DNA of 64,000 nucleotides, from contig OY759225.1 of the NCBI GenBank assembly GCA_963662175.1, forward strand, positions 13,013,601-13,077,600, given 5' to 3'. The notes under the pieces are model-generated. The model saw nothing but the letters and a program-made list of their open reading frames with translations. It was not told where the DNA came from and did no database searches. This document shows positions 4,177 to 58,087 of this stretch, in pieces. Numbering within the stretch: position 1 is the first letter of the stretch; every line of letters begins with the position of its first letter. Source of the stretch: Aradus depressus (Eukaryota; Arthropoda; Insecta; Hemiptera; Aradidae). The position numbers and the translations under genes are program-made.

Positions 4177-4230
4177 TTTCACTGTAACCTGATGAAAGGA
4201 CCTAAGAACGTCCTGAAATGTCGTAGTGAA
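4177..4230 (+). ncRNA. Hammerhead-like motif, PLE-a copy 1
   Basis: CUGAUGA at 4189-4195, stem II AGGAC/GUCCU around loop CUAAGAAC, GAAA at 4215-4218, then AUGUCGU and A as a GUA-type cleavage triplet. Stem I next to the core is only about 2 bp, though UUUCAC upstream can pair with GUGAAA downstream. The core is intact but stem I is weak, so activity is uncertain. Confidence 0.55.
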
Positions 4231-4460
4231 AAAGACACTTCAAAGTTATAGCTAAAAATTATTATCTAAATTTAAATTAAATCATAAAACTCATCTACCA
4301 TTTATTCTAATATTATTTTTTTTATACTCATATTTTCAAGTAATTATTTATAAATTTTATTTATTTTTATTAGTATTGTCAATTCTAATCCATGTGTGTC
4401 AGACTCTAAGAGTTAATATCTGTTTATGTATCTAAATTATAAGCTATCTTAATGTATATA

Positions 4461-5414
4461 CAGTTGACTCTCGAAAATTTGAAACTCAAGGGACGAGGGG
4501 AAAAGTTCAAATTACCGAGTGTTCAAAATAATAAAAGTTCAAATAACCAAGACGGAGTTAGGAAAATATTCAAATAAACAAGAGTGTGATTCATAAGTGA
4601 TATTTATTTAAAAATATACAAAATAATATACATATGTACATACATAATTATGTACATACATAGGTATATGGTACAATTGGTACTCGTAATAATTACGGAC
4701 TTCTTTTCAAAATGAACATTTGCCTATAATATTTTCATTTTTAAGTTTTTGTACCATATATGTATGTACATATGTAAGAAAATTATTTTCTTTTGAGTAA
4801 GAGACTTCCATCTTGCATTATCCAGGGAGTTTTCTATAGTGATGAGAGCTGAGAAAAAATCATCATTCGTTTCTGTCCTGAGGGCGTCGGAGCGTAGAGT
4901 GTTAAGAGAAGACCTTGCCTCGCTCAAATGTGACCAGATTTGGCCGTTGCTCTTCTTCAATTTCTTCCTCGTCCTCATCCTGACAGGCCAACAGTTCAGC
5001 ATCAGTTTGGATCGTCAACGGCTTTCCGCAGCTTCTATAACACGCAGTTTCTCACCAATTGAAAGACATTTATTCTTTCTGGAGCTCATTTTGATTTTTA
5101 AAATTAGAAAAACGCTGTTTAAATTTAACAAAAGAAAGAAAACTGCAAAGTCAATTAATCTAGTCCAGGGCATGTAAACAAAGGACAGGTCTGTGCAGGA
5201 TCAAATGACTCACATCAGAAGTGGGGACTTCAAATTATAGAGAGTTGGGGAGCCCTAACTTCAAATTATAGTGTTGGCGAATATGATGCCATTGCTACAA
5301 CTTCAAATTACCGAGGGGACAAAATGTACATTAATTGTTTACAATTTATCGAGTGTTTCTCAAGGGACCTGGACAAAACTTCAAATTATCGAGTGTCAAA
5401 TCGAGAGTCGACTG
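4461..5414. mobile_element. Pogo/Tigger-like element, TA target duplication
   Basis: Terminal inverted repeats CAGTTGACTCTCG... and ...CGAGAGTCGACTG are flanked by TA on both sides (4459-4460, 5415-5416). Inside, the motif CTTCAAATTA(T/C)CGAG recurs near the right end as degenerate copies of the terminus. At 954 bp it is shorter than a full element but retains the end of a transposase frame on the minus strand. Confidence 0.85.
4724..5002 (-). pseudogene. Pogo-like transposase C-terminal remnant
   Basis: The frame reads LKKSNGQIWSHLSEARSSLN, then TLRSDALRTETNDDFFSALI and TIENSLDNARWKSLTQKKI. An acidic/leucine-rich tail with a LxxL...IE pattern is common at the C-terminus of Tigger-like transposases. 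Its place inside a TIR-bounded pogo-like element supports this. It lacks the DDE domain and is non-functional alone. The family call is an inference. Confidence 0.45.
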
Positions 5415-5764
5415 TATTCTTATTACGTATCCTATTACCATGTTATGGTTTAACAGAAATAAATATTAGTATTATTATTATTGTGTTCATTAATGATTTT
5501 TAGCGAAGATGGTCGACTGGTGTCGGATAGCAAAAATCTAGTAGATTAAATTCTGGGGAATCAAGCAACCATCTTATTCTAATTAATTATAGGCAACTAA
5601 GATGGGGGCGGCTCAGAGGGGAAATAGCGTCCTTGAACTTGCCTCCCGCTGATCGGATTACAAGAAGGGATGTGTAAGGTACACCACAGACAGTGGGTCC
5701 CGCCTCAGCGGCTGTCTGCGGAGTCGAGTTCTGTCCACTTCTAGACTAGGGTATAGTCGGTCTC

Positions 5765-5875
5765 TTCACGTTGGAGAGTTACTATTCATTTAAAAACATT
5801 CGTCAGTGAATCACTAGCAGTGTACTTCCCCAGAACGAATTAATTAAATGTTTGCTTCCCCTCTGACCGTTTGGG
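5765..5875 (-). repeat. Repeat B terminal fragment
   Basis: GTCAGTGAATCACTAG, GTACTTCCCCAGAACGAATT and GCTTCCCCTCTGACC mark the B terminus. The preceding stretch 5481-5764 holds no recognisable feature. Confidence 0.55.
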
Positions 5876-5889
5876 GTAGTGATAATAAT

Positions 5890-6530
5890 AATAATATTAA
5901 ATAATAAATATATTTCCGTTAAACCAATATATAGTAATAGGATATGTCAAATGAATTTATACATTAAGATAGCTAACACATCTATGATTAGTAATAATAA
6001 CAAAACTATTAAAAAAAGTCAAATGAAATTAATAAAAACTGAACAAATAAATACATAAAAATATATGAGTATATAAAAAATAACTAATACAAGATACGTT
6101 CATAATAAGTAGACACATTTTTCAATTTAATGAAAATTAAGATAACTATTTTTAAAAAAAAAACTCTTCGTAAGTGTCTTTATCCCCCAACGATGTTTTG
6201 GGACGTTCTTACGTCCCATCATCAGGTCCCAATGTGGCGAGATATAGAAAAGAAAGAAAACAATGTAACTATAACAATATATGAAAAAATAATGTATATA
6301 TATATACAATTATAAATGAATGTATAAAAAACACGATTCTTTATTGTGATTATATTATTCTTTTTGAACAGTGAGAATAAAATTCCGTTTTCGTGTGAAG
6401 GGTTTCCTCTAACATGAACGTTTTTAGTTGAAATATAATTTTTTTTATTGTATCTATTGCCTTCAAGAAGTGGGGAAGGGCAATAAATTAATTCCTTTAT
6501 GAGTTATAATTTTTTCAAAAATAGAAGAGC
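5890..6530 (-). mobile_element. PLE-a copy 2
   Basis: Reverse-oriented homologue of 24040-24640 and 4141-4460: TTCCGTTAAACCAATATA on the left, AAGATAGCTAACACATCT, then GTGTCTTTATCC and the hammerhead complement. No open frame with PLE motifs survives. Confidence 0.65.
6185..6232 (-). ncRNA. Hammerhead-like motif, PLE-a copy 2
   Basis: On the minus strand: CUGAUGA, stem II GGGACG/CGUCCC with loop UAAGAA, then AAAA in place of GAAA. The G-to-A change at the first base of GAAA should inactivate it; the 6-bp stem II is still perfect. Confidence 0.5.
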
Positions 6531-6711
6531 AATGTTTGGTTATTCGAACTATTCTGAATAATATTTGACTTACATAGGGACTTCTAAAGCCTCATAATAA
6601 ATGTTGTGTAGATAAATTCATGAAAGAATAGGGGTTTTTGAGTTAAGCGCCCCCCCCCCCCTCCCCTGAACCCCCCTTCTCTTGAGTCTATTCCGCTGAA
6701 AACACCAATAG

Positions 6712-7180
6712 GTGTCAATGTTATCCATCCAGACACTTCTCCAGGATCCAGGCTTCTATCCCTTCCAAGTCATGTTTCCACCACCATTATCCATCCAGAC
6801 ACTTCTCCAGGATCCAGCCTTCTATCCCTTCCAATTCATGTTTCCACCGCCATTATCCATCCAGACACTTCTCCAGGATCCAGCCTTCTATCCCTTCCAA
6901 GTCATGTTTCCACCACCATTATCCATCCAGACACTTCTCCAGGATCCAGCCTTCTATCCCTCCCAAGTCATATTTCCACCACCATTATCCATCCAGACAC
7001 TTCTCCAGGATCCACGCTTCTATCCCTCCCAAGTCATGTTTCCACCACCATTATCCATCCAGACACTTCTCCAGGATCCAGCCTTCTATCCCTTCCAAGT
7101 CATGTTTCCACCATCATTATCCATCCAGACACTTCTTCACCAGGATCCAGCCTTCTATCCCTTCCAGGTCATAGATACGC
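6712..7180. repeat. Minisatellite, 66-bp unit, about 7 copies
   Basis: Seven consecutive units of about 66 bp (CCATCCAGACACTTCTCC core). Because 66 is a multiple of three and units lack stops, a plus-strand frame of 212 codons repeats a 22-residue peptide. The last unit has a 3-bp insertion. No start context, signal peptide or homology suggests a real protein; it is best read as a minisatellite. Confidence 0.9.
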
Positions 7181-7532: not shown

Positions 7533-7830
7533 TCAAGATCGTGGGTTCGAAATCCGACCGAGGCCCTAAGCTTATTTTATCTGGGAGGTAAAAAAAAAGG
7601 TAAGCACGCCACACGGGATGTTAAGCGATGGTTCCGAGCCTGTATGCTGTTAGGTACTCATTAAAGACCCCTACACTAGGTGAATAAAAATTTAGGGTAG
7701 GCAAAATTTAGGACTCCCACAATAGAGTCGGGCTCATGTCCACCAGAGTGACGAAAGAGCGCTCTGGTAGTAGGCCATATGACCTCGTAGTTAAAGCCCG
7801 AGCATTAGTCATAAAACCAAATCAAACCAA
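7533..7830 (+). mobile_element. SINE1, 5'-truncated, degenerate tail
   Basis: Starts at the B box (GGGTTCGAAATCCGACC) without the A box and runs to GCATTAGTCATAAAACC followed by AAATCAAACC, a decayed form of the CCTAA tail. A small repeat B end (GGTGAATCACC, GTACCTCCCCAGAACGG) precedes it at 7490-7535. Confidence 0.8.
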
Positions 7831-8690
7831 AATGAATATGTAGGGCGCCACAATTTCAAAGTTCAAATTGTAGTTCCTGTCACCGAATTTTCCTTTACAT
7901 TATACTTGACTCCAGAATGATTCTACTTTAAAAAGAAGTTTGTTTATACTTTGTTGAAAGCTTTAAAAGTAATAACAGTCAGTTTTGTGTTTTTTATTAT
8001 TATTATTATTACATTTTTGTTGTAGTTCCTTTCAAAAGAAGAAGGAATTCACGGTGGCAACTTCCGTGAGAACCTCGACTCTAGATCATTTTATACAATT
8101 CTTGTCCTTCCTTTGGCATCGTAAAAAGTTGAGTTCACTCAAGCAAAAACAGGATCGATTCTGCAAGCAGAGAGTTTGCAGTGTCCCCCCCCCCCCCCCC
8201 CCCCCCTGTAAAACGGGATGTTGCACCTTCAAGTTCGTTGAGTTCCAACAATCTTTTTTTTTTTTTTTCTTATTTTTTTTTTTTACAAAGAGTCGGTTCG
8301 GTGGGGTGCGTTTCTGATGTTAGACATCGGAGATTCGTCACACCCACATTTTTTTCTTGTGGGATTTATGAAGGAGAGTTAAGAAGAAGAAATGTCCAGT
8401 CAGTTTGTAGACTGCCCAGATACAAGACATGACCTATCACATTCCTTCCTCTTTCTAACCAAGAACCAAGTTGTAATTTTATTTAGCTTCAATACTAGAA
8501 ATTTTGCGCCACCATTCCCGGCCAGTTGCTCAGGTCTTTTAATTTTAATATACTGCACCTCCGGAAGAACAAATGGAAATCAAGATCGACAATATATAAG
8601 CGGCATCTTGTAAAATTCACTGTGATAATAAAAAAAATGTTAAATACAATAAATAATAATTGAATTAATAGAATTAATAATAAAATCACC
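7831..8690. other. Low-complexity stretch without genes
   Basis: Contains a run of about 22 C at 8185-8206, T-rich tracts at 8252-8284 and AT-rich DNA. The short frames across it are low-complexity translations (poly-Pro, poly-Phe). Nothing recognisable. Confidence 0.7.
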
Positions 8691-11805: not shown

Positions 11806-12149
11806 TTAGGTTAGGTTTTATGACTCATGCCCGGGCTTTAACAACGAGGTCATAACGCCTACTACCAGAGTGCTCTTTCGTCACTCTGGTGGACATGAGC
11901 CCGACTCTACTATGGGAGTCCTAAATTTTGCCTACCCTAAATTTTTATTCACCTAGGGCAGGGGTCTTTAACGAGTACCTGACATCGTACAGGCTCGGGA
12001 CCATCGCTTAACGTCCCATCCGAAGGACGGCGTGCTTAAGTTTATTTTACCTCCCAGATAAAATAAACTAAGGGCCTCGGTCGGGTTACGAACCCACGTT
12101 CTTTAGCTCAGAAGTCAAGCACGCATACCACTGAGCTACCGGCGCCCTC
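11806..12149 (-). mobile_element. SINE1, full length with target duplication
   Basis: Complete copy. On the minus strand it runs from the tRNA-like head (GGGCGCCGGTAGCTCAGTGG, A box TAGCTCAGTGGTA, B box GGTTCGTAACC) to a tail of CCTAA units. Flanks GTACATAGATTTA are repeated on both sides (13 bp), showing a single retroposition event. Length is about 345 bp. Confidence 0.9.
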
Positions 12150-13000
12150 GGTACATAGATTTATATATTCTTTGAGGCCCTATAACTTTGGTTAACTGGT
12201 TCTGTCTCTTTGAGGACACATTAGCGATTGGGTATTTAATAACAAACATTTTTAGTAAGAACCAATGTTTCGATAGGACCTTCAGTTGTCTTCAGCTGTT
12301 GACGATTGAGAAATCTTCACATTCCCTGGTTTCCTGTGTTACTAATTTCTTCAATCGTCGCTAATTGCACAATCAGGGTGAAGTAAAAGAATACTAAATG
12401 CAATTTGCTGTCTGGATGGCAATTGAAGGATTCGGTCTATTGGATGCACTTTGTCGATTTAATGCTTTGGGGACTTTATCCTACTTGCCGACTTCATCAA
12501 AGCACCTATTCACCACGGAGGAGGAAAGATCACTTTGAAAGTACTCCAGCATCTGGGTCACCCGGTGACAGTCTCCTTCGTGTCTCTGCCGATTGTTCAC
12601 ACGGTCCTTAACAAAACTGTTTCACAGCCTTTCTTTATCTAATTTGCCTATTACACCCAAAGTGGAAACTTCACCGTCTTTCTTAGTCTAGGGATCTTAG
12701 ATCATAGATTCAAAAATTCAAATCTTTATGTTCGTGATTCTGTAGTCCTAAGACCCCTGTCACACAAGACACTCAGTCTACTCCCTCGAGTCGCCCGTAC
12801 ACACAGCTGCATCTCGGCCACTTATTTATTATTTGGGGGTGTTGAAAGAGAAATAAATTATTAATGACACTCCATTCATTATATTGTATAAATCAGCGGA
12901 TGTGAGAAATATAAATTAAAATATATAGAAAAAATAAATAAACAATTAAATGATAAAAGAAAACTATGGCATAAAAAGTATATAGATGATTAAGTTTCAA
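12150..13000. other. Unassigned; possible degraded PLE
   Basis: On the minus strand near 12270-12335 there is GCUGAAGA ... AUCGAAACAUUGGUUC, which resembles a hammerhead core but has no convincing stem II. 12400-12620 has a weak minus-strand frame I cannot identify. Nothing else is recognised up to 13000. Confidence 0.3.
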
Positions 13001-15470: not shown

Positions 15471-15553
15471 ATCTTAATGTGTGTAAAGGCTTACTTTGTT
15501 GTGAAGTAACGTCTTTGTAAAAAAATGGTTGATTGGATTAGCTAATGCCATTC

Positions 15554-15895
15554 GAGGGCGCCGGTAGCTCAGTGGTATGCGTGCTTGCCTTCTGAGCTCA
15601 AGATCGTAGGTTCGAAACCCGACCGAGGCCCTTAGTTTATTTTATCTGGGAGGTAAAATAAACTTAAGCACGCCGTCCTTTGGATGGGACGTTAAGCGAT
15701 GGTCCCGAGCCTGTACGATGTCATGTACTCGTTAAAGACCCCTACCCTAGGTGAATAAAAATTTAGGGTAAGCAAAATTTAGAACTCCCACAGTAGAGTC
15801 GGGCTCTTGTCCACCAGAGTGACGAAAGAGCGCTCTGGTAGTAGGCGATATGACCTCGTAGTTAAAGCCCGGGCATTAAACCTAACAGTTAATGT
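15554..15895 (+). mobile_element. SINE1, full length
   Basis: Head GAGGGCGCCGGTAGCTCAG with A box and B box GGTTCGAAACC at about 15610. The body is complete through AGAGCGCTCTGGTAGTAGGC and the end is CATTAAACCTAAC, with the tail reduced to one to two CCTAA units. No clear target duplication. Confidence 0.88.
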
Positions 15896-17996: not shown

Positions 17997-18606
17997 CAGT
18001 GAAACCTCTCCATAGCGGACAAACTCGGGTCTACCGCTTTTGCCCTTTATTGTGAGGTGTCCGTTATCGAGACATTATGACCTTTTCTAAATTTGTCAAC
18101 CATTTGACCCTTTAAAATCCCCAAAATTTCGGCGACTTCGGATGCCTTTTCCTGTATCATAGAGCCAGAAATAGGGAGATCAATTTCAAAACCATTACCG
18201 TGTTTTTTTGTGAAAGCCGTTTTCGTTTCTTCATTTCCATGTTCCTGCCATTTTAGTAAGTGTGCATTCCTATCTTTTAAAATGGTCGCGATCTGAGTCT
18301 TTCCCATCTTAAACTTTGCCGCTAAATCCCTGGATTCTGGGCTTTTCTCGATTATAAAATTTAATTACTGTTACGAAACGCGAACGAAATTTTCGAGCAG
18401 CCGTGCCTCACGTGTTCCAAGAAACCAAGAGCCTGCTATCCGCTTTCGGGAGGTAGATTTTTCTCATGGGACCATTTAATGTCCGTTGTCTGTTAAGAGC
18501 CCGTTATCGATAGGTAAACTAAGCATTGATTTGAGTGTTCTGTTGCCGGGACCATAGAAATTTTGTCTATTAATAGAGTTTTTCCCTATTTTCCCAGGTT
18601 TCACTG
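17997..18606. mobile_element. Pogo/Tigger-like element, TIR CAGTGAAACCT
   Basis: Termini CAGTGAAACCTCTCC and its counterpart ending AGGTTTCACTG are flanked by TA. The 610-bp body carries the transposase N-terminus on the minus strand (18047-18364). A deletion derivative of a larger element, inserted in repeat B. Confidence 0.85.
18047..18364 (-). pseudogene. Pogo/Tigger transposase N-terminal fragment
   Basis: The frame reads IEKSPESRDLAAKFKMGKTQ, then IATILKDRN, HLLKWQEHGNEETK and a long acidic stretch ending at a stop. SRDLAAKF followed by GKTQIATIL is the helix-turn-helix of Tigger/CENP-B-type transposases, expected to bind the terminal repeats. It opens right after an in-frame stop, has no DDE domain, and cannot be an active transposase. 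The intact DNA-binding part could in principle act as a repressor; that is speculation. Confidence 0.75.
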
Positions 18607-19375: not shown

Positions 19376-19553
19376 CAAACGAACAAAGGTTTTTGGTGGG
19401 AGAGGAACGACTTAATTAATTCTTGTCGGGGAAGTATCAGAATTGGGTTATTATATAGAGTAACCCAATTCTGATACTTCCCCGACAAGAATTAATTAAG
19501 TCGTTCCTCTCCCACCAAAAACCTTTGTTCGTTTGGGTTAGTAATCTTTAGTT
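19358..19553. repeat. Perfect palindrome, 93-bp arms, 10-bp spacer
   Basis: 19358-19450 and 19461-19553 are exact reverse complements around TTATATAGAG. The arms are the terminal part of repeat B (GAATTAATTAAG, TTCCCCGACAAG), so this is a head-to-head dimer of a B end. Perfect identity points to recent formation, such as fold-back repair or template switching, or to gene conversion. Confidence 0.95.
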
Positions 19554-24039: not shown

Positions 24040-24645
24040 TTAAGTTTATATTTTTTAAATTTATTTCCGTTAAACCAATACATCAAAAAGTGTATATATT
24101 AAGATAGCTTTTAAATTAGATTTATAACTACTTGAATCTAACTCACGTATGATTAGTAGTAATAACAAAACTATTAAAAAAAGTAAAATGAAATTAATAA
24201 AAACTGAATAAATAAATACTTAAAAATATGTGAGTATAAAAAAAAAAATAAAACATAGATACATTTATAATAAGTAGACACAATTTCAAATTTAATAAAA
24301 ATTAGGATAACTATTTTTCAAAAATCTCTTCGGAAGTGTCTTTATCCGAACGACGTTTCGGGACGTTCTTACGTCCCTTCATCAGGTCCCAATGTGCGAG
24401 ATATAAAAAAGAAAAAGAAAACAATATAACTCTAACAATATATGAAAAATAAAATAAATATATATATTATTCAATTATAAATGAATAAATAAAACAATAA
24501 CGTACATTTGACTGACCTTTAAGGTGTGGAGGAACTCTGCCCAAAAAATAAAAATGAAAGCTTTGTATCAAATAATGTTTTTGACTATGAAACACGATGT
24601 TATTATTTTTGAACAGTGAGAATAAAATTCAGTTTCCGTGTATAG
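24040..24645 (-). mobile_element. PLE-a copy 4
   Basis: Longest and best-preserved PLE-a flank: TTTCCGTTAAACCAATAC on the left, AGATAGCTTTTAAATTAG, then GTGTCTTTATCCGAACG, the hammerhead complement and ATAACAATATATGAAAAA. It is followed by the same GTGAGAATAAAATTC sequence as at 6370. No frame with RT or GIY-YIG motifs. Confidence 0.65.
24343..24392 (-). ncRNA. Hammerhead-like motif, PLE-a copy 4 (best a copy)
   Basis: Minus strand: CUGAUGA, stem II GGGACG/CGUCCC with loop UAAGAA, GAAA, then ACGUCGUU. ACG-U-CGU is self-complementary except for its central base, so two copies could pair there; GUU is a permitted cleavage triplet. The first stem I pair is a C-C mismatch, so a standard fold needs help from outer pairs. 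Confidence 0.6.
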
Positions 24646-24999: not shown

Positions 25000-25143
25000 T
25001 ATATAATTTATTTTCTCTATAGTTAGTTAAAAATATAAAGAAAAACGAATGTTTTTTTAAAATACTGTCTATTTCACAAGATATATAAAATATATGGGAG
25101 TACTTTCGGTATTGCTACCATCTTCAGCCACGACTTAACAAAT
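25000..25143 (-). mobile_element. PLE-d end, copy 1
   Basis: Carries the d-type hammerhead (25094-25131) and downstream AT-rich sequence with GTCTATTTCACAAGATATA and AAGAAAAACGAATG, matched at 34204-34262. Coding sequence is absent. Confidence 0.6.
25094..25131 (-). ncRNA. Hammerhead ribozyme candidate, PLE-d copy 1
   Basis: Minus strand in order: stem I GUGG, core CUGAAGA (the variable seventh base is A), stem II GGUA/UACC closed by the GNRA loop GCAA, GAAA, stem III AGUACU (self-complementary), cleavage triplet CUC, stem I CCAU. All invariant bases are present and stem I gives three Watson-Crick pairs plus one wobble pair. As stem III is a palindrome, the expected active form is a dimer or tandem arrangement. 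Confidence 0.8.
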
Positions 25144-26372: not shown

Positions 26373-26435
26373 AGATTCATTCTGCTCACATTCAGCAGCT
26401 CTCGACTCCTTTTCTCCAGAGGGTTCCATAACAAA

Positions 26436-26979: not shown

Positions 26980-27356
26980 AGAAAGGGGGATCAAAAAGGT
27001 TCCAAACTCAAAAACCCCAATAAATGTCGATTTAATGAATGTATCGATACATTCAGAAGGCTCTGTATAATTCAAGTATTGAATTTCAGCACTTACTATC
27101 AATAGGTTTGCAGGTACAGCGAAAACTTAATTGATTAATTCGCGTTAATCATCGCTGATGATGCACCGACCAATTATCGCATCTAACTTTTTTATCTCCG
27201 TCTTTAGAATGAAGAGCGTGTGAAGGTTTTTTTACTTCCTCGACTATACAAAGTACAGGAGACGTTAAATAATTGGTCAGAAATTCGATGTCGAGTTTTC
27301 AGCGAAATTTCGTGTTTTCCAACACCCTGATTCTAAAAAAAACGCAAACTTAATTG
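26980..27356 (+). repeat. Repeat B pieces flanking PLE-c on the left
   Basis: Modules with AATGAATGTATCGATACATT and a partial end (CAGCGAAAACTTAATTGATT), then an outer end in the same orientation (TTACTTCCTCGACTATAC, AATTCGATGTCGAGTTTTC). It stops at CAAACTTAATTGAT, which is the left copy of the PLE-c target duplication. Confidence 0.65.
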
Positions 27357-27436
27357 ATGCATGTGTTAGTAAGATGTTGTGGGACAAGATTTCTCAAAGA
27401 AATAAAAGATGTTGTCTTCCCACTGTTTTATTTTTG

Positions 27437-27478
27437 ACCAGAATCGGTTTTCAACGCAACAGCGTCATCATCAGTGGT
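27437..27478 (-). ncRNA. Hammerhead candidate, PLE-c left arm
   Basis: Minus strand: stem I ACCA, CUGAUGA, stem II GACGC/GCGUU with loop UGUU, GAAA, stem III region AACCGAUU, C, stem I UGGU. Core and both outer stems are intact; stem III deviates by one base from the palindrome AACCGGUU of the other copies. Confidence 0.78.
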
Positions 27479-27926
27479 ACATCTATGATAGAATAAATAT
27501 AATATACAAATAATGAAAAGTATAAATCTTAAAGCATCAGGGTACAGAGTAACAAAATAAAAACTTACCCCACCCACACAGCGTAGCGGTTAAAGGAGAA
27601 CTGGCATAGCTCAAAGGAATGGGGATAACTAGGTTCACTCACTATACATACAAAAACATTCATTCAAATATAATCAATAACTATAAAATAAATCATAATA
27701 GTAAATTATCTCTGCAATAGTATAAAATTCTCCGTATAGCCGAAAGAATTTTTGTCATAAAAAATAATAAATAAATATAAATAAAATAAAATACACATAA
27801 TAAATATCTTTATAAAACCCAGCCAAAAAAACGTTTACAATACATCTGTTAGAGGACAGGTACTTGCCTTAGTTTTGGACCAATCTCTCACACCAGGTAG
27901 GTCAGGCAGAAGGGAGATCTTAACCT

Positions 27927-28196
27927 CTACTTTTTGTTAAGACTGTTCGTATCCTCATATAAAGAAAGTCGCATCTCCAAGCCTTCTAAGATGTCCGTAC
28001 GTCTTCCCTTGGTACCCTCGTGCAACAGTGCCACTCTATGGGTACCAATATGGCCCTCATTTAGACAATGAATGTAGAACTCTGAATCCCTTCTTCGTAG
28101 ATGTTTCTTAGTCCGTATGTATAGTTTCCTTCCTGTCTGTCCAATATATATTGCATTACAATCTCCACCATTATTGTGTATATTTAATGTATGTTT
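27927..28196 (-). pseudogene. Penelope-like GIY-YIG endonuclease, C-terminal fragment
   Basis: A stop-terminated minus-strand frame without a start codon (about 89 residues): HNNGGDCNAIYIGQTGRKLY, IRTKKHLRRRDSEFYIHCLN, EGHIGTHRVALLH, EGTKGRRTDILEGLEMRLSL, YEDTNSLNKK. The C-x-AIYIGQTGR signature, the R/H pair (IRTKKH), FYIHCLNEGH and the LEGLEM acidic motif match the GIY-YIG endonuclease that ends Penelope ORFs; it nicks target DNA for reverse transcription. The frame is open to its stop, so decay is modest, but the RT part is gone. Family assignment is from motifs; a profile search would confirm it. Confidence 0.85.
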
Positions 28197-28686
28197 TTGT
28201 GCGTAGAGTGAGTGAACCTAGTCTGTCCTACCTGCTGTTACAGACTGGTTCCAAACTAAGGCAAGTAGCTGTCCTGTAACAGATGTATTGTAAAATGTTT
28301 TTTGGCTGGTTGTTATATATGTATTCATTATGTGTATTTTATTTTATTTATATTTTTTAACTCTGTGATTTATTTCTTTGAAATTTTTATTTATTATTTT
28401 TTATGACAAAAATGCCTTCATAGTATGGAGAATTGTATACTATTCCAGAGATATTTTACTATTATGATTTATTTTATAGTTATTAATTATATTTGAATGA
28501 ATGTTTTTGTATGTATAGTGAGTGAACCTAATTATCCTCACTCCTTTGAGCTACGCCAGGTCTCCTTTAACCTCTACGCTGTGTGAGTGGGGTGAGTTTT
28601 TATTTTTGTTACTCTGTACACTGATGCTTTAAGATTTATACTTTTCATTATTAGTACATTATATTTATAGGTACTATCATAGATGT

Positions 28687-28728
28687 ACCACTGATGATGA
28701 CGCTGTTGCGTTGAAAACCTGTTCTGGT
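28687..28728 (+). ncRNA. Hammerhead candidate, PLE-c right arm
   Basis: Plus strand: ACCA, CUGAUGA, GACGC-UGUU-GCGUU, GAAA, AACCUGUU, C, UGGU. Same as the left arm, with a different single deviation in stem III. Confidence 0.78.
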
Positions 28729-28770
28729 CAAAAATAAAACCGTGGCAAGACGTATTTTATTTCTATGAGA

Positions 28771-28815
28771 AAACTTAATTGATTAATACACACTGTGGAA
28801 GTACATGATTTACCA
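28771..28815 (+). repeat. Repeat B end, right flank of PLE-c
   Basis: AAACTTAATTGATTAATAC and GTGGAAGTACATGAT continue the B terminus interrupted by PLE-c. 28816-29180 beyond it holds no recognised feature. Confidence 0.6.
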
Positions 28816-37679: not shown

Positions 37680-37998
37680 GTGCTTGACTTCTGAGCTCAA
37701 GATCGTGGGTTCGTAACCCGACCGAGGCCCTTAGTTTATCTGGGAGGTAAAATAAACTTAAGCACGCCGTCCTTCGGATGGGACGTTAAGCGATGGTCAC
37801 GAGCCTGTACAATGTCAGGTACTCGTTAAAGACCCCTACCCTAGGTGAATAAAAATTTAGGGTAGGCAAAATTTAGGACTCCCACAGAAGAGTCGGGCTC
37901 ATGTCCACCAGAGAGACGAAAGAGCGCTCTGGTAGTAGGCGATATGACCTCGTTGTTAAAGCCCGGGCATGAGTCATAAAACCTAACCTAACCTAACC
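37680..37998 (+). mobile_element. SINE1, 5'-truncated, inserted at a mariner end
   Basis: Begins in the head after the A box (GTGCTTGACTTCTGAGCTC) and ends with three CCTAA units (CCTAACCTAACCTAACC). CGGAAATTTTC occurs at 37666-37676 and again right after the tail at 37999, consistent with an 11-bp target duplication inside the mariner terminus, with 8 extra bases at the 5' side. Confidence 0.8.
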
Positions 37999-38600: not shown

Positions 38601-38893
38601 GTGTAACGCGGTTCTCACGAGAATTGATGTGTAAAAATCTGCTTTAGTTTCAAAAACTTGCTGTGATGCACTGATTTTGATTAAAATTTGTTTTATAATA
38701 TTACAATAAGAAAAGTAGTATGAGCAATTAAACTTTCAAATTTATTGTTCTTCAATTTTTTTTGTACATGAAATAATAGGTTTGTGATAGATAAATAAGA
38801 TATATACAACTGTGATGGTAGTGTCACTAAATATAGCGTCGATGATAGTTTTCGAATTTTTGTTGAAATTCTTCGATTCGTATTCATTTGTAG

Positions 38894-39239
38894 AGGTTAG
38901 GTTAGGTTAGGTTTTATGACTCATGCCCGGGCTTTAACTACGAGGTCATATCGCCTACTATCAGAGCGCTCTTTCGTCACTCTTGTGGACATGAGCCCGA
39001 TTCTACTGTGGGAGTCCTAAATTTTGCCTACCCTAAATTTTTATTCATCTAGGGTAGGGGTCTTTAACGAGTAGCTGACATCGTACAGGCTCGGGACCAT
39101 CGCTTAACGTCCCATCCGAAGGACGGCGTGCTTAACTTTATTTTACCTCCCAGATAAAATAAACTAAGGGCCGGGTTATGAACCCACGACCTTGAGCTCA
39201 GAAGTCAAGCACGCATACCACTGAGCTACCGGCGCCCTC
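38894..39239 (-). mobile_element. SINE1, full length, longest TTAGG tail
   Basis: Plus strand begins GAGGTTAGGTTAGGTTAGG (three telomere-type units) and ends GAGCTACCGGCGCCCTCG. The body lacks only CTCGGTC before the B box. No target duplication is visible. Confidence 0.92.
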
Positions 39240-40170: not shown

Positions 40171-40348
40171 TACTGTTCAAAAAAAAAAATTTAATTTTTC
40201 TGGGGGTATTATTCTTGATTCTTATGGGAAATTGATTCCAGGATTCAAATTTGCAATTAGTTTTTCTGTGTCAGGTATAGTTTTGAAGTTATAAGGAATT
40301 TCAGTTTTTTCAAAATTGTTACACTTCTTATTTCCACGCTGTGTATTT

Positions 40349-40690
40349 AGGTTAGGTTTTATGACTCAAGCCCGGGCTTTAACTACAAGGTCATATCGCC
40401 TACTACCAGAGCGTTCTTTTGTCACTCTGGTGGACATGAGCCCGACTCTAATGTGGGAGTCCTAAATGTTGCCTACCCTAAATTTTTATTCACCTAGAGT
40501 AGGGATCTTTAATGAGTACCTGACATTATACAGGCTCGGGACCATCGCTTAACGTCCCATCCGAAGGACGGCGTGCTTAAGTTTATTTTACCTCCCAGAT
40601 AAAATAAACTAAGGGCCTCGGTCGGGTTTCGAACCCACGTTCTTGAGCTCAGAAGGCAAGCACGCATACCACTGAGCTACCGGCGCCCTC
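40349..40690 (-). mobile_element. SINE1, full length with target duplication
   Basis: CGCTGTGTATTTA (13 bp) precedes the tail (GGTTAGG) and follows the head (GGCGCCCTCG), a clean duplication. A and B boxes are intact. Confidence 0.93.
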
Positions 40691-40876
40691 GCTGTGTATT
40701 TATAAAGGCAAAACATGCAACTATCAATATTTTAGTCACTTATAAAATTATTTAGAAACATTTTAGACAGTATAAAACAAAAACATGAAGGCGCCCATAA
40801 ATTATCATCATATATTGTATAAAAAAACTTATATAAGATTAGAAAATATGAAAAAAATCATATTTTACCCAAGAAT

Positions 40877-44175: not shown

Positions 44176-44690
44176 TCGTATAGCTTGGAAAGAAAAAAAC
44201 AAAAAAACCATGGCTAATGTGATCCGAGTACTAGGTATCCAAACTCAAAAGTAACAGTGATCGTTGAGATAACATCTCAGCCCTCCGGCTGCTATGCTAA
44301 TCTCAATCTTGAATCCCTTGCTATCATCTTCAAATTATTTCAAGATATTTATTTTTTTATAACTTTTATTCCCACTAAAACATTTTCACCTTCAGAATTT
44401 CTGATAGGGATAGTATGTAAAAAGATCTAGAGTTGAAATACCATGATTTTAAACACCATTTTAATAATCGGTGGGGTGTTTATGTCAATGTTTGGGCACC
44501 GTTAGAGTGGCTAGTCTACAGAGCTCAAGATCCGCCAGTTTGGAAGTTGAGCTGAGTAAATTTGAGTCGGTAAAGAACTATGAAAACTGACATAATTGCA
44601 GAGATATTGTGAAATAATTCAAATGGACTTGAAAAATAAAATAAAACTGGTTTATTTAATATGTTGTCTAATTTCACTAACTATATATAC

Positions 44691-44728
44691 ATGGGAGTAC
44701 TTTCGGTATTTCTACCATCCTCAGCCAA
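44691..44728 (-). ncRNA. Hammerhead candidate, PLE-d palindrome left arm
   Basis: Minus strand: UUGG, CUGAGGA (variable position G), stem II GGUA/UACC with GNRA loop GAAA, GAAA, stem III AGUACU, C, CCAU. Relative to 25094-25131, loop and variable base differ but pairing is kept. Confidence 0.75.
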
Positions 44729-44773
44729 AAGCATAAGAGATAAGACTGATCTTAAGTCTTATCTCTTATGCTT

Positions 44774-44811
44774 TTGGCTGAGGATGGTAGAAATACCGAA
44801 AGTACTCCCAT
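44774..44811 (+). ncRNA. Hammerhead candidate, PLE-d palindrome right arm
   Basis: Exact mirror of the left-arm motif: UUGG 44774-44777, core 44778-44784, AGUACU 44801-44806, predicted cleavage after C44807. Confidence 0.75.
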
Positions 44812-44883
44812 GTATATATAGTTAGTGAAATTAGACAACATATTAAATAAACCAGTTTTATTTTATTTTTCAAGTCCAGGTAA

Positions 44884-44951
44884 AGAACTAGTCGAGCTCA
44901 TGTCCATCAGAGCGACAAACGAGCGCTCTGGTAGTAGGCAATATGACCTCA
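44884..44951 (+). mobile_element. SINE1 3' fragment
   Basis: GTCGAGCTCATGTCCATC to GGCAATATGACCTCATC. Confidence 0.6.
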
Positions 44952-46462: not shown

Positions 46463-47034
46463 TGTGTGAGGATTCCAAGTTAGTCGTTTGTCTAAAGTTT
46501 GTTTAAAGAGATGGGATTGTTGTTAAGATACACTGGGCAGGAGGTATTTGTTTGAGAAAGACATTGTGAACTGAATTCTTGTCGTTTACCTTCACTCTTC
46601 ACTTTTTGTAACAGGACTGAAGGGATATCGATGTTCTTGGAGGCGTCTTAAGGATAAGAATAGGTCGGCGCTGGGGATATAAAGCGGTCAATTCTGCCCT
46701 GGTACAGATATGCAGCCAGGCGGGAAAATAGTAAAGGAAATGAAATAATAATAAGAAAATTAGTTCTTAGAGATCCTGAATGCAGGAGGAAAAACCTGTT
46801 TCTTGGTAACAAGGAGGCTGCTTCTATCTGTTAAAACAGATAAATTGTACACAAATTGAGGATGTACTTCCGTCTGAGTCCGCAATTTCAAATCTATATT
46901 TCAGTCCCTCCAATTTTTAAAAACTAAAATGATACCAATTACAGAAGAACAGGATAAAGGAATATACACACACTAAAGGAAATATAAACTCCAAACACTA
47001 CTTGTCAATATTTTCACTATATTGGTCAAAATTA

Positions 47035-47072
47035 CACGACTATAGTTTCGCCTCTTACGGCATTATCAAGTG
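47035..47072 (-). ncRNA. Decayed hammerhead-like motif, family f
   Basis: Minus strand: stem I CAC, UUGAUAA (two transitions from CUGAUGA), stem II GCC/GGC with loop GUAAGA, GAAA, stem III ACUAUAGU (perfect palindrome), C, stem I GUG. Everything but two core bases fits. 46740-47030 before it is unassigned. Confidence 0.45.
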
Positions 47073-47245
47073 AACTCAACAGAGAGTACTGTTGAACTAA
47101 CACAAGGCAGGACAAACAATGTCATAAATTAGACATGTGACAAGAAAGTAAATGTAAACAATAATAGATGTTTGCTAGCGACTGTAGAATTCAAAATTCT
47201 GGGGGTATTGAGGGTCAGTCAATGATGAAAACAACCTATTCAAAT

Positions 47246-47282
47246 GCCAACGTTTCGATATATTTCATATCATCATCAGGGC
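47246..47282 (-). ncRNA. Hammerhead candidate, PLE-e left copy
   Basis: Minus strand: stem I GCC, CUGAUGA, stem II GAUAU/AUAUC with loop GAAAU, GAAA, stem III ACGU (palindrome), U, stem I GGC. Core complete; stem III only four bases. Confidence 0.7.
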
Positions 47283-47618
47283 CTAACAAAAACAAGACAA
47301 AACCTCAAGACAACCCAAAACCTCAAATACTGTCAATTTTCGCACTGATACCAATAACCTGAGCAACATTTATGCCAATTTGCTTCAAAACTGCTGAATC
47401 CATAGTTCTGTCTCCAATTATATTTAAAATATAAAACTGTCTGTTTCAGTGTCTACATTCACCGAGTTTATTTATAGATTAATTTCATTGTGTGTCTATT
47501 TATTCTTTATTATGTATTAATTCATTTTTGGTTAGTGTCACTTCTGTCGAAAATTCTTCATTTAATTAATAAGTTTAATTATGTTACTATTTATATAATT
47601 ATTGAGTTACTATTTATA

Positions 47619-47964
47619 GGTTAGGTTAGGTTTTATGACTCATGCCCGGGCTTTAACTACGAGGTCATATCGCCTACTACCAGAGTGCTTTTTCGTCACT
47701 CTGGTGGACATGAGCTCGAGTCTACTGTGGGAGTCCTAAATTTTGCCTACCCTAAATTTTAATTCATCTAGGGTAGGGGTCTTTAACGAGTACCTGACAT
47801 CGTACAGGCTCGGGACCATCGCTTAACGTCCCATCCGAAGGACGGCGTGCTTAAGTTTATTTTACCTCCCAGATAAAATAAACTAAGGGCCTCGGTCGGG
47901 TTACGAACCCACGACCTTGAGGTCAGAAGTCAAGCACGCATACCACTGAGCTACCGGCGCCCTC
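47619..47964 (-). mobile_element. SINE1, full length with target duplication
   Basis: Inserted in PLE-e. GTTACTATTTATA (13 bp) flanks both tail (GGTTAGGTTAGG) and head (GCGCCCTC). The body is nearly identical to 38894-39239. Confidence 0.94.
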
Positions 47965-48375
47965 GTTACTATTTATATAATTATTGAGTTTTATTTATTT
48001 ATTTATTTTTTTTTTTTTTTGTAACATAGTAAAATATCTGTTAGCCAGTAGTTAGTTCTCTACAAATTTAAGTACCGTTAACTGGGGTTTTCCCCGGATT
48101 TATTATCTGTTACCCTCTACCCTTCTGTACCCTTAGTTGAACGTAAGACTTCACAGTCTTCATGCCTTCTCCTCAACCATCTATATTCATAGTAAGTTTT
48201 CTTGTTGTTCATCAATGTGTATATGTATGTGTATGTATATGGATATATAATTATGTATTTATGTGTATGTGTGTATGTTTTGAGTGTATATTTATGTACC
48301 TATATATAATTTTAATCGATCACTCATTATATTTTTCCAATCTTGATTCCCCCATGTTTGTCTTGTTTTTGTTAG

Positions 48376-48412
48376 GCCCTGATGATGATATGAAATATAT
48401 CGAAAAGTTGGC
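48376..48412 (+). ncRNA. Hammerhead candidate, PLE-e right copy
   Basis: GCC, CUGAUGA, GAUAU/AUAUC, GAAA, then AAGUU in place of ACGUU, GGC. The C-to-A change breaks the self-complementary stem III. Confidence 0.6.
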
Positions 48413-48664
48413 ATTTGAATAGTGTTTTCATCATTGACACCCTCAATACCCCCAGAATACTGTAAACAATAATGTACAAAGGATACATTACAACATTCAA
48501 GTCTAACAGAAATATGAAACAAAACTTAATTGAATATTTAACAATATAGTCTTAATCTATTGATATATGTATAAAAAATTATTTATGTAAAATCTCTCTT
48601 TAAATAAAGCCTAGCTTTCCCCTATTTTTTCTACTCTGCAATGTCTCTATTTCCTGTATTATAC

Positions 48665-50260: not shown

Positions 50261-50844
50261 CACGATCTTGCGCCTGCCCTGTTTATCAGCTATGTTTAAT
50301 ATTGTTGTTATGTGTTATAGATGGTGTTGTAAAGGGACGCAAGGCAGCTAATGGTGTTGTCAACAGAGCCGATGACAAACTCTCCACACTTTCCAGGTAT
50401 GACAACATTCTAAGTTTAAAGGGAGACTGAAAATAGTTGAAATTAGGAAGGAAATCGGCTACGGCGCTGCATAGAGTGAAATTATTTCGGGGGGGCCTGG
50501 CTACGCCACTGATTTGGATGTAGGGATGGACGATAGTCAATAGTTTCAACGATAGTCGTTTAGGGCAGATATTCAGGATATTCCACTGCTCCATTTAGCT
50601 TCATAACAACGATTAGCAGAAGTCAAATCACGTCTTGGTGAGTTCTCAGGCCCAGAGTATGTCTTGTTTTTATTTGTGCGTTCGAGGTCTTGAATAGCTA
50701 AACGTGCAACCGGATTTCGAACGTTGAGAATATATTTGAAATTCTGCAGCCAATTCAAATCCCAACCGAAAATTCAAAGAATGGAACATGTTATTAACTA
50801 TTCAAAGGTTAGCTAATATACGAATAACGCAACAAGAACAAAAA

Positions 50845-51172
50845 ATAATTGGTGAATCATCGTCAGTGTACTTTCACAGAACGAATCATCCAACTAACTT
50901 TTAATAATTGGTGAATCATCGTCAGTGTACTTTCACAGAACGAATCATCCAACTAACTTTTAATAATTGGTGAATCATCGTCAGTGTACTTTCACAGAAC
51001 GAATCATCCAACTAACTTTTAATAATTGGTGAATCATCGTCAGTGTACTTTCACAGAACGAATCATCCAACTAACTTTTAATTATTTAATGTCCACAGAG
51101 ACTCCTAAATGTCCACAGAGACTCCTAAATGTCCACAGAGACTCCTAAATGTCCACAGAGACTCCTAAATCC
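50845..51172 (-). repeat. Two tandem arrays made from repeat B ends
   Basis: 50845-51080: four identical 59-bp units (GGTGAATCATCGTCAGTGTA, TTTCACAGAACGAATC). 51090-51172: four 20-bp units (TGTCCACAGAGACTCCTAAA). Both sequences are neighbouring parts of the B terminus (cf. 63070-63095), amplified in place without losing their order. Confidence 0.9.
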
Positions 51173-53254: not shown

Positions 53255-53333
53255 ACAAAGCATAAAAAATGCTGATCGATTTCATAACTCCCCCTATACG
53301 TCGTATACTTGGGGAAGTACAATACTCAATGTA
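53255..53333 (-). repeat. Repeat B outer end
   Basis: ATCGATTTCATAACTCCCCC, TATACGTCGTATACTTGG and GGAAGTACAAT. Confidence 0.6.
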
Positions 53334-53680
53334 GGTTAGGTTAGGTTTTATGACTCATGCCCGGGCGTTAACTACGAGGTCATATCGCCTACTACCAGAG
53401 CTCTCTTTCGTCACTCTGGTGGACATGAGCCCGACTCTACTATGGGAGTCATAAATTTTGCCTACCCTAAAGTTTTATTCACCTAGGGTAGGGGTCTTTA
53501 ACGAGTACCTGACATCGTACAGGCTCAGGACCATAGCTTAACGTCCCATCTGAAGGACGGCGTGCTTTAAGTTTATTTCACCTCCCAAATAAAATAAACT
53601 AAGGGCCTCGGTCGGGTTTCGAACCCACGATCTTGAGCTCAGAAGACAAGCACGCATACCACTGAGCTACCGGCGCCCTC
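53334..53680 (-). mobile_element. SINE1, full length
   Basis: Tail GGTTAGGTTAGG at the left; head GAGCTACCGGCGCCCTC at the right. Left flank ATACTCAATGTA and right flank TGACTCAAAGTA may be an aged duplication (9 of 12). Confidence 0.92.
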
Positions 53681-54210: not shown

Positions 54211-54370
54211 TCGTATAAATTGTTGGTGAATCATCACAAGTCGTCCCTGTTTGAAATAATCAACTAAATTATCGCTAATAATACGAAGATGGTTGATGTA
54301 GTGAGAAATGATTATTTCACAGGTTGTCAAATCAGACATAGTCTGACATCTCACAAATTTTTATTTGTAT

Positions 54371-54412
54371 TAGCTAGCCGGCTTTCGAGGTTGCCCTCAT
54401 CATCAGGCAGTC
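54371..54412 (-). ncRNA. Hammerhead candidate, PLE-b left arm
   Basis: Minus strand: stem I ..GC, CUGAUGA, stem II GAGG/CCUC with GNRA loop GCAA, GAAA, stem III AGCCGGCU (perfect palindrome), cleavage triplet CUA, stem I GC... Stem I is two adjacent pairs, then mismatches. Confidence 0.7.
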
Positions 54413-54685
54413 CGATAAAATACTTTTTTTGAAATTAACCTAATTAAAATATTTTAGTAAATAAAGAAAATTTTTTTTTTAAAGTTTTAAATTTTACTCA
54501 AGTTGTGGAGTTGTGACTCATATGGGGGACATGAATAACTTATCTGTCCCCCATCCATGAAATTTTAAGTTGTTATAGTTTTTAGATGGTTTTATTTATT
54601 TATTGGTTTATTTTTATTATAAAAAAATTTTAAATTTTATTTACTAAAATATTATAATTAGATTAATTTAAAAAATATATATATT

Positions 54686-54730
54686 ATCTGCCTGATGATG
54701 AGGGCACCCTCGAAAGCCGGCTAGCTAATA
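54686..54730 (+). ncRNA. Hammerhead candidate, PLE-b right arm
   Basis: CUGAUGA at 54692, stem II GAGG/CCUC with loop GCAC, GAAA 54712-54715, AGCCGGCU 54715-54722, predicted cleavage after A54723. Confidence 0.7.
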
Positions 54731-54795
54731 AAAATAAAAATCTGTGAGAGGTCAGACTATATCTCATTTGACAACCTGTGAAATGAGTTATTGCT

Positions 54796-54846
54796 CTCTC
54801 TCTCTCTCTCTCTCTCTCTTGCTCTTTCTCTCTTTCTTTCTCTCTG
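54796..54846. repeat. (TC)n microsatellite
   Basis: About 24 bp of pure TC followed by interrupted CTTT/TCTT repeats. Confidence 0.9.
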
Positions 54847-56644: not shown

Positions 56645-56884
56645 GAGCATAAAAATACGATACCATAGAGCAGAGATGAACATTTTAGATCCCATTATCC
56701 GAAGTATAGGGGTAGTTATGTCATGAGCTAGGGGTTCTTACCCTTGATTCTGAAAATGAAAAAAAAAAAAAAATGTGTGTCCATAGACACGATAATTGCC
56801 AATAGAACGAATGAGAATGGGGGAATAAAAAATCGAGGAGGAGGGGGGCTAACACAAAAATTCGCAATGTAATTAACAACTGAA

Positions 56885-57000
56885 TAGAACGCCAGTTGTC
56901 TTTTAACCGCTGTGCTGTGTGGGTGGGATGTACTACTGATGATGACACTGTTGCCTTGAAAACCAGTTCTGATAAAAAAACAAACAGTGATAAAGACAAT
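56885..57000 (+). mobile_element. PLE-c fragment with eroded hammerhead
   Basis: AACGCCAGTTGTCTTTTAAC, CGCTGTGCTGTGTGGGTGG, then ACTA, CUGAUGA, GACACUGUUGCCUU, GAAA, ACCAGUU. Stem II and stem I contain mismatches. Confidence 0.65.
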
Positions 57001-57004
57001 AATA

Positions 57005-57290
57005 TGAAGAGGGCTGATGTAGTGAGAAGTGATTATTTCACAGGATGTCAAATATAAGATAGTCTGACCTCTCACAGATTTTTATTGGTAGTAATAGCTA
57101 GCCGACTTTCGAGGTTTCCCTCATCATCAGGCAGTCTGATAAAAAATAAAAATTTTGAATAAAACTAAATAATATAATGAAAATAAATAAATAACAATCT
57201 AAAACATTAACAATTTAAAATATCATGGATGGGGACAGACGAGTTATCCCTGTCCACCATCTGAGTCACAACACAGAGTTGTCAAAAACT
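57005..57290 (-). mobile_element. PLE-b single-arm copy
   Basis: GATGTAGTGAGAAGTGATT to GGGACAGACGAGTTATCC and CTGAGTCACAAC, collinear with the left arm at 54284 but without the inverted partner. Hammerhead at 57095-57136. Confidence 0.7.
57095..57136 (-). ncRNA. Hammerhead candidate, PLE-b copy 3
   Basis: CUGAUGA, GAGG/CCUC with GNRA loop GAAA, GAAA, AGUCGGCU (one base off the palindrome), A. The loop change GCAA to GAAA between copies keeps the GNRA class. Confidence 0.68.
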
Positions 57291-57533
57291 CTAATAACTG
57301 TCGACATGAAATTTCATATTTTAAAACCCAATGAGGACATAACCTGTCAAATTTCATCGATATTGGCCGAAGGGAAGGGAGGGTTCAGGGGAAGGGCTCA
57401 ATTCAATAACCCTATAATAAGAATTAATCGACGCAAAATTAAGGGATGAGGGTTAGAAGTCCCTATGTTAATTGTGGAATAATGGCGCAAATGGGCGCCT
57501 GGTTTTGGAGGAGGGATGAAAGTTTAATTGATT
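57290..57533 (+). repeat. Repeat B, left flank of PLE-c
   Basis: AACTCTAATAACTGTCG, AATTTCATCGATATTGGCCG, GGTTTTGGAGGAGGGATG, ending at GTTTAATTGATT, the left target duplication. Confidence 0.7.
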
Positions 57534-57611
57534 CATATGTGATAGTAAGATGTTGTGGGACTAGATTTCTAATAGAAATAAAAGACGTTGTCTTCCCACT
57601 GTTTTATTTAT

Positions 57612-57653
57612 ACCAGAACCGGTTTTCGACGCAACAGCGTCATCATCAGTGGT
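57612..57653 (-). ncRNA. Hammerhead ribozyme candidate, best PLE-c copy
   Basis: Minus strand: stem I ACCA, CUGAUGA, stem II GACGC/GCGUC (5 Watson-Crick pairs) with loop UGUU, GAAA, stem III AACCGGUU (perfect palindrome), UUC cleavage triplet, stem I UGGU (4 pairs). Every invariant position is met. The C-to-U difference at 27437-27478 changes a G-C pair to G-U, preserving stem II. Confidence 0.85.
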
Positions 57654-58050
57654 TCATCTATCATAGAATAACAACAATATACAAATAATAAAGTATAAAA
57701 AATTTCTAAAGCATCAGGGTACAGAGTAAAATTATAAAATTAACTTACCCCACCCACACAGCATAGCGGTTGGAAGATAACTGGCATAGCTCTAAGGGGT
57801 GGGGATAGCTCCACTCACTCTCTCAACATGCAAAAACCATTCGTAGTAGATATTAGAATGAATGGTTTTTGCATGTTGAGAGAGTGAGTGAACCTGGCTA
57901 TCCCCACCCCTTAGAGCTATGCCAGTTGTCTTCCAACCGCTGTGCTGTGGGTGGGGTAAGTTAATTTTATAATTTTACTCTGTACCCTGATGCTTTAGAA
58001 ATTATTTATACTTTATTATTTGAATATTTTTGTTATTCTATGATAGATGA

Positions 58051-58087
58051 ACCACTGATGATGACGCTGTTGCGTCGAAAACCGGTT
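58051..58087 (+). ncRNA. Hammerhead cut at its own cleavage point
   Basis: ACCA, CUGAUGA, GACGC-UGUU-GCGUC, GAAA, AACCGGUU, then the target duplication starts. The 3' strand of stem I is absent, as expected if the inserted RNA or cDNA ended where the ribozyme cuts. Confidence 0.75.

Follow-up and report, generated by a model that had tools for sequence, protein, structure and literature searches.

Minimal type I hammerhead ribozymes that act as dimers were reportedly described in Penelope-like elements (PLEs) by Cervera and de la Pena in 2014 and by Lunse, Weinberg and Breaker in 2017. Later papers state that minimal type I hammerheads of PLEs may cut as dimers and carry a palindromic stem III (PMC7761336, PMC6466107, PMC6155905); all three cite Cervera and de la Pena 2014, and PMC7761336 and PMC6466107 also cite Lunse and colleagues 2017. 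The role of these hammerheads has been termed 'still a mystery' (PMC7761336). In the scheme proposed for a PLE of Anolis, a repetitive locus gives rise to multi-copy RNA, the element's protein cleaves AT-rich DNA on both strands and reverse transcription begins at an internal site of the RNA; in vitro, the hammerhead of this element was dispensable for insertion (PMC11167929). Here we analyse hammerhead motifs in a 64,000-nucleotide stretch of the genome of Aradus depressus (GenBank assembly GCA_963662175.1, contig OY759225.1, positions 13,013,601 to 13,077,600 of the forward strand), hereafter the window, which is AT-rich (GC 0.34–0.40) and laden with repeats. A preliminary description had proposed five to six PLE-like families of such motifs, a to f, with unrelated flanks and a shared self-complementary stem III. 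The reading that we favour, on the anatomy of the sequence and at a probability of about 0.88, is that the window holds minimal type I hammerhead motifs in the pseudo-long terminal repeats (pLTRs) of several PLE families, set in short, mostly inverted insertions.

Hammerhead motifs of five families

We searched the window with a strict descriptor (CUGANGA, 0–2 nucleotides, a stem of at least 4 bp, a loop of 3–9 nucleotides, GAAA) and found 14 sites; 40 dinucleotide shuffles averaged 0.175 sites and never held more than 3. At 10 of the 14 a self-complementary stretch begins at A15.1 and is followed by a non-G nucleotide (G–U pairs allowed), compared with 0.05 per shuffle on average and at most 1. 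The conserved core CUGANGA...GAAA with three helices, open at stem I, is that of a type I hammerhead. Adding the decayed copies a3, a4 and c5 gives 17 copies, which BLAST of the window against itself places in five families (four copies of a, three of b, five of c, three of d and two of e). No between-family match runs across the motif at E ≤ 1e-4 in that comparison, which bears out the unrelated flanks. Families a to e are present as proposed, and exceed chance.

4189..4218 (+): a1, family a core, C3 to A15.1; stem III AUGU with one G–U pair
6196..6225 (−): a4, decayed family a copy; AAAA replaces GAAA
10999..11028 (+): a3, decayed family a copy; GGAA replaces GAAA; without stem III or stem I
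24356..24385 (−): a2, best family a copy; stem III ACGU, H17 C, stem I 4 bp
25104..25127 (−): d3, solo family d copy; stem III AGUACU, stem I 4 bp; dimer predicted to fold as double hammerhead
27449..27474 (−): c4, family c hammerhead core
28691..28716 (+): c1, family c hammerhead core
44701..44724 (−): d2, family d hammerhead core
44778..44801 (+): d1, family d hammerhead core
~47032..47069 (−): f, doubtful single-copy site; core UUGAUAA, stem III ACUAUAGU
47253..47279 (−): e2, family e hammerhead core; stem III ACGU
48379..48405 (+): e1, family e hammerhead core; stem III AAGU, broken
54383..54406 (−): b3, family b hammerhead core; stem III AGCCGGCU, stem I 2 bp
54692..54715 (+): b1, family b hammerhead core
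56936..56961 (+): c5, decayed family c copy
57107..57130 (−): b2, solo family b copy
57624..57649 (−): c3, sole complete family c copy; stem III AACCGGUU, stem I 4 bp
58055..58080 (+): c2, family c core; strand beyond stem III missing

Ten of the 17 copies are complete on paper, with the core intact, stem III fully paired (G–U allowed), H17 not G and a stem I of at least 2 bp. Family c contributes c3 alone to this group: c1, c4 and c5 each have one broken stem III pair, and c2 has a G at H17 and a stem I of 1 bp. Stem III of family a is self-complementary as described, but the register ACG-U-CGU first given for it leaves stem I with 0 bp and was rejected in favour of ACGU before a GUC site, which makes H17 a C and stem I 4 bp long. 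A c-like fragment at 32190–32280 (−), its hammerhead deleted after CTGATGATGAC, was left out of the count. With a looser descriptor (up to two mismatches) we found 22 sites scoring at least 8, against 4.3 per shuffle; one extra nucleotide is present in 17 of the 22, and no new repeated family emerged in the window beyond the named copies. The sixth family fared less well than a to e. Site f is weak and single-copy, with two core mismatches and a 3-bp stem II; a site that satisfies the criteria it satisfies occurs in 3 of 100 shuffles, and at E ≤ 0.01 the window yielded no other copy of the f region. We rejected it as proof of a further family on these grounds. Two pattern scans of IMG/VR gave 0 matches, and a plasmid similarity search returned only five records (E 0.007–0.3, covering at most 18% of the query) and was uninformative.

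The covariation alignment comprised the 17 copies in 16 distinct rows, with relatives counted separately, which brings the effective number closer to five families. Of 75 stem II cells 94.7% are paired and 24 show a double change, and the covariation score is 0.785 against 0.361 in shuffles; none of these three values was reached in any of 500 shuffles. Sliding helix II by 1–3 columns lowers pairing to 25–48%. This support comes from stem II, stems I and III having been tabulated only. The core letters are kept while the stems covary, which suggests that the fold itself is under selection.

A shared self-complementary stem III is supported for the best copy of each of the five families, where it is exact: ACGU in a, AGCCGGCU in b, AACCGGUU in c, AGUACU in d and ACGU in e. 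As background, 98 of the 975 GAAA sites in the window (motif copies included) have a 4-, 6- or 8-nucleotide palindrome plus a non-G. The chance that all five families are palindromic is about 1 in 100,000, before allowing for the choice of best copy. Over the 17 copies 46 of 53 stem III pairs are intact, at per-family lengths fixed after inspection.

Inverted insertions and their ends

Five insertions (one each of b, d and e, and two of c) consist of two inverted copies that face outward, their C3 positions separated by 54 to 1,217 bp, and target duplications of 12–13 bp were found in four of the five.

27359..28770: c_27, inverted family c insertion; tailed end at left
27346..27358 (left) and 28771..28783 (right): target duplication of c_27, 13 bp
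44581..44878: family d insertion, inverted; arms 44624–44878 form a 98% palindrome; left end 43 nt longer
44569..44580 (left) and 44879..44890 (right): target duplication of the d insertion, 12 bp
47166..48460: family e insertion, inverted; contains a later 340-bp repeat; left end 32 nt longer
47153..47165 (left) and 48461..48473 (right): target duplication of the e insertion, 13 bp
54277..54799: family b insertion, inverted; ends approximate; target duplication not found
57534..58087: c_57, inverted family c insertion; right end at the last stem III base
57522..57533 (left) and 58088..58099 (right): target duplication of c_57, 12 bp

As a control, pairs of random window stretches of equal size share a word of at least 12 in 19–38 of 1,000 draws. 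A single duplication is only suggestive; four in five insertions, with the right-hand duplicate beginning no more than 6 bases from the arm end in 4/4, are not chance. The search around solo copies gave only 9-bp matches near a3, AT-rich matches of 11 and 9 bp near d3 and one 8-bp match around c5 and b2, which we take as chance. Joining the flanks of c_57 at the duplication yields a query that six further loci of the window match straight through the junction (starting at base 100 or below and ending at 150 or above); these are unoccupied relatives. Both bounded c insertions (duplications at 27346–27358 and 57522–57533) lie in AT-rich target with TTAATTGAT in common, a hint of target preference; the shared sequence belongs to a short dispersed repeat.

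The ends of these insertions, whose positions rest on the called target duplications, lie 116 and 80 nt from C3 in c_27, 114 and 82 nt in e, 144 and 101 nt in d and 116 and 33 nt in c_57. One end is longer by 32 nt (e), 36 nt (c_27) or 43 nt (d) in three of the four bounded insertions; those of c_57 differ by 83 nt because one of them stops at stem III. Counted from C3, the predicted cut after H17 falls at position 34 in c, 30 in d and 31 in e. Seven of the eight resolved ends extend 46–114 nt beyond it, which implies RNAs uncut at that motif and agrees with the in vitro finding that unprocessed RNA is the dominant substrate of the Anolis PLE (PMC11167929). The exception is the right end of c_57, which is the last stem III base, one base before the predicted 3′ end of cut RNA, and adjoins an exact target duplication; as one case in eight it may be a coincidence. 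Genomic insertion ends thereby offer a natural record of RNA state, mostly uncut, with one stopping at the predicted cut.

The difference of 32–43 nt matches the tail published for one of the two inverted pLTRs of PLEs (PMC3846280), which has been equated with the stretch between two start sites of reverse transcription (PMC11167929). The longer ends of c and e lie 114–116 nt from C3; reverse transcription of the Anolis element most often starts 111–118 nt into the open reading frame (ORF), which begins at stem II (PMC11167929). Palindromic junctions have been read as self-priming by Arkhipova and colleagues (PMC3846280), and the near-perfect palindrome of d fits either self-priming or priming on both strands.

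Inverted arms with target duplications would also be expected of foldback or DNA transposons resembling miniature inverted-repeat transposable elements, their terminal inverted repeats merely holding a hairpin that resembles a hammerhead. The palindrome of d and the lack of a recognised reverse transcriptase gene (see below) would suit such elements too. DNA transposons, however, have matching ends, whereas the two ends of one insertion differ by 32–83 nt in 4/4 bounded cases here, and five families whose stems differ all have the CUGANGA/GAAA core. We consider this origin improbable.

PLEs have pLTRs in inverted or tandem order, one end optionally bearing a tail of about 30–40 bp; here inverted pLTRs with a one-sided tail, target duplications and a hammerhead within the pLTR (families b to e) were all found. 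The inverted pLTR-like arms, target duplications, one-sided tail, core and covariation together support PLE hammerheads; for family a, it is the motif itself that suggests PLE status. Drawing on published work, we suggest that reverse transcription by the PLE protein would begin 46–114 nt beyond the predicted cut, the RNA having read through the motif. Such a start would leave genomic ends with an uncut motif and a tail; were the RNA used by each of the two target strands, head-to-head inverted pairs would, we infer, result. Two motifs, whether within a tandem transcript or on separate RNAs, could be joined through the palindromic stem III into a double hammerhead, probably aided by the element's protein; this structure would trim the RNA and would not be needed for insertion.

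Variant core, dimer folding and coding content

In canonical hammerheads helix II directly follows A9, with nothing between. All 17 copies depart from this junction: exactly one unpaired nucleotide, a U in 14 copies and an A in the other 3, separates A9 from stem II. This feature marks them as a variant with an active viroid precedent. This nucleotide and the inverted pairing of copies were both absent from the preliminary description. In the plus-strand hammerhead of chrysanthemum chlorotic mottle viroid, A10 moderately slows trans-cleavage, and at that position a change from A to U raises the rate 3–4 fold, C and G being harmful (PMC3705267). Removal of the position-10 nucleotide is stated to increase cleavage by a viroid hammerhead (PMC11014351). 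The U and A seen here are the two letters that the viroid tolerates, which is less telling in an AT-rich genome. Each of the 17 copies has an in-frame AUG at A6 or A9, opening a frame of 3–12 codons in b, c and e, 13–15 in d and 19–35 in a. The extra U was rejected as maker of the main start codon in the b, c and e copies, given frames of that length.

The variant features bear on whether the motifs still cut. They could be inactive relics, that is, former PLE hammerheads whose extra nucleotide, stem I of 2–4 bp and lack of loop contacts now prevent cleavage, kept as an RNA signal that the reverse transcriptase recognises. The Anolis motif showed no cleavage without protein and its mutants inserted normally (PMC11167929), 7/8 resolved ends lie beyond the predicted cut, and the double hammerhead predicted for a and e is well above the best dimer in energy (see below). 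The retained core letters and covarying stems, which suggest selection on the fold, speak against this reading, as does the tolerance of an extra U or A in the viroid hammerhead (PMC3705267). Loss of cleavage is, to us, a possibility of some weight that we nonetheless doubt.

A more speculative proposal, which we regard as rather unlikely, is that the extra U or A is class-wide in PLE hammerheads and has been retained because it slows the ribozyme or makes it depend on protein, sparing template for insertion. Under this proposal the c_57 end, which lies a single base ahead of the predicted cut, would be a rare insertion from a ribozyme-trimmed RNA end. In the open-licence literature, as represented by excerpts, we found no mention of an extra nucleotide after A9 as a shared trait of PLE hammerheads and no report of PLE insertion ends at the cut site, which says little on novelty. 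Five families with different stems and the same extra nucleotide in one window provide a cheap comparative test of that nucleotide's effect. It is the shared extra nucleotide, together with what the insertion ends record of cut and uncut RNA, that merits further work.

We folded dimers with ViennaRNA, unconstrained and with one copy per family. The full double hammerhead is the best predicted dimer for d3 only, and lies above the best dimer by 0.5 kcal/mol for c3 and 3.6 kcal/mol for b3; in none of the five families is the monomer minimum fold exactly the hammerhead. These predictions make a dimer design plausible in d and c and less so in b; for a and e this simple model does not favour it. 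The earlier argument that a palindromic stem III cannot close by itself, and so acts only as a dimer, was overstated, since the 8-nucleotide palindromes of b and c could form 2 bp and a tetraloop. An axolotl hammerhead with a 2-bp stem and tetraloop, which has loop contacts, showed 22% cleavage in an hour as a monomer and much more as dimers (PMC7229834).

Tandem transcripts, the other route to cleavage that had been proposed, are not borne out by the arrangement of copies. Among 12 pairs of successive same-family neighbours, two are direct, 19.6 and 28.2 kb apart, six face outward and four inward; an inverted pair gives antisense copies. Even c5 and c2, which at a distance of 1.1 kb are the closest copies of any family on the same strand, have the antisense c3 between them. 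The window copies do not form tandem templates for dimer cleavage within one transcript. Direct tandem repeats of the metazoan retrozyme type (some 170–400 nt with a hammerhead) were not found in the window. Retrozymes, small non-autonomous circular-RNA elements, resemble the insertions in their shortness and type I layout, and PLE machinery has been proposed as their mover (PMC7761336). The lack of a direct tandem array in the window and the ends beyond the cut, by which the inserted RNA was not a unit-length cut circle, make it very improbable that the elements are retrozymes.

Several observations weigh against PLE hammerheads as the reading of these motifs. No target duplication was found for b, whose stem I is only 2 bp. 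Family a consists of four dispersed copies without an inverted unit, or a duplication beyond the chance-size matches near a3. Two of the five covariation measures were unremarkable, namely pairs with a double change (equalled in 87 of 500 shuffles) and further pair types (471 of 500). At 144 nt, the longer end of d disagrees with the Anolis start site. The double hammerhead lies 8.8 kcal/mol (a2) and 9.2 kcal/mol (e2) above the best dimer. Rfam release 15 gave no hammerhead match at gathering level, at E ≤ 10 or on two short stretches; its microRNA matches at 44678–44824 and 57806–57896 were rejected, since they are long palindromes within insertions d and c_57. PLEs have an ORF for a telomerase-like reverse transcriptase with a GIY-YIG endonuclease; among the open frames of the window listed or scanned, none was recognised as a reverse transcriptase gene. 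By eye, a 93-aa open stretch at 27930..28208 (−), antisense within c_27, contains a GIY-YIG-like motif, the sole match in six window frames to a pattern written after seeing that stretch; it found no support from Pfam, NCBIfam, PHROGs, PDB sequences or protein homologues, and its single-sequence structure prediction was unusable (mean predicted local distance difference test score 46.4).

Identity as PLEs is supported by anatomy (arms, duplications, tail), core and covariation, and not by a reverse transcriptase gene. We conclude that the set is one of well-supported PLE-type hammerheads of a known kind. The preliminary description had called it notable, but the dimer action of PLE hammerheads and the palindrome that it requires are already in print (PMC6466107, PMC7761336).

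Other repeats lie among the insertions. A dispersed repeat of ~340 bp has copies at 7610–7833, 11806–12150, 15553–15892, 26435–26779, 37731–37998, 38892–39172, 40347–40691, 47617–47972, 53329–53578 and 60271–60632, with 88–97% identity among the longest 25 of 808 inverted pairs; one copy lies within insertion e, and insertion d is at the edge of another. It has, by eye, a stretch like a tRNA-type promoter box, as in short interspersed nuclear elements, and ARAGORN finds no tRNA in the window. Tandem repeats comprise a 63-bp minisatellite of 22.4 copies at 61196–62611, most of it covered by a 380-codon stop-to-stop frame (61165–62307, −); a 492-bp duplication at 2230–3187 (1.9 copies, 98% matches); and a 59-bp repeat at 50844–51086 (4.1 copies, 99% matches), whose units contain CTGACGA and GAAA on the minus strand yet give no strict-descriptor match. 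A hairpin at 19416–19495 with weak microRNA matches adjoins AT-rich tandem repeats. Fragments at 18050–18364 (−) and 35262–35573 (+) have weak, below-cut-off Pfam matches to Tc5-type and DDE transposase domains.

Comparison with known systems

The chrysanthemum chlorotic mottle viroid hammerhead shares one extra nucleotide between A9 and stem II with the motifs described here; it differs in having loop–loop contacts and is unrelated in sequence (PMC3705267). Satellite hammerheads of newt and axolotl resemble the window motifs in a very weak stem III with a palindromic loop and cut far better as dimers, but they have loop–loop contacts and form direct tandem repeats (PMC7229834). The Penelope families of Adineta vaga resemble the insertions in their inverted pLTRs, one of which bears a 31-bp tail, in palindromic junctions and in short target duplications, which are 8–10 bp there and 12–13 bp here (PMC3846280).

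PAc, a Poseidon element of Anolis carolinensis, resembles the Aradus insertions in its hammerhead at the junction of pLTR and ORF, its tail between two start sites of reverse transcription and its AT-rich target (PMC11167929). Its ORF starts at stem II right after G8, which by our reading would supply the same extra U (A9-U-G forming AUG; PMC11167929). In the families described here, by contrast, the frame opened by the core AUG is too short in b, c and e (3–12 codons) to start the main ORF. With the PLE hammerheads already published, the window copies share the type I layout, a vestigial stem III with a palindrome, pLTR-like repeats and many dispersed copies; reviews stress a tandem arrangement of those hammerheads, whereas the bounded copies here are inverted pairs (PMC7761336, PMC6466107).

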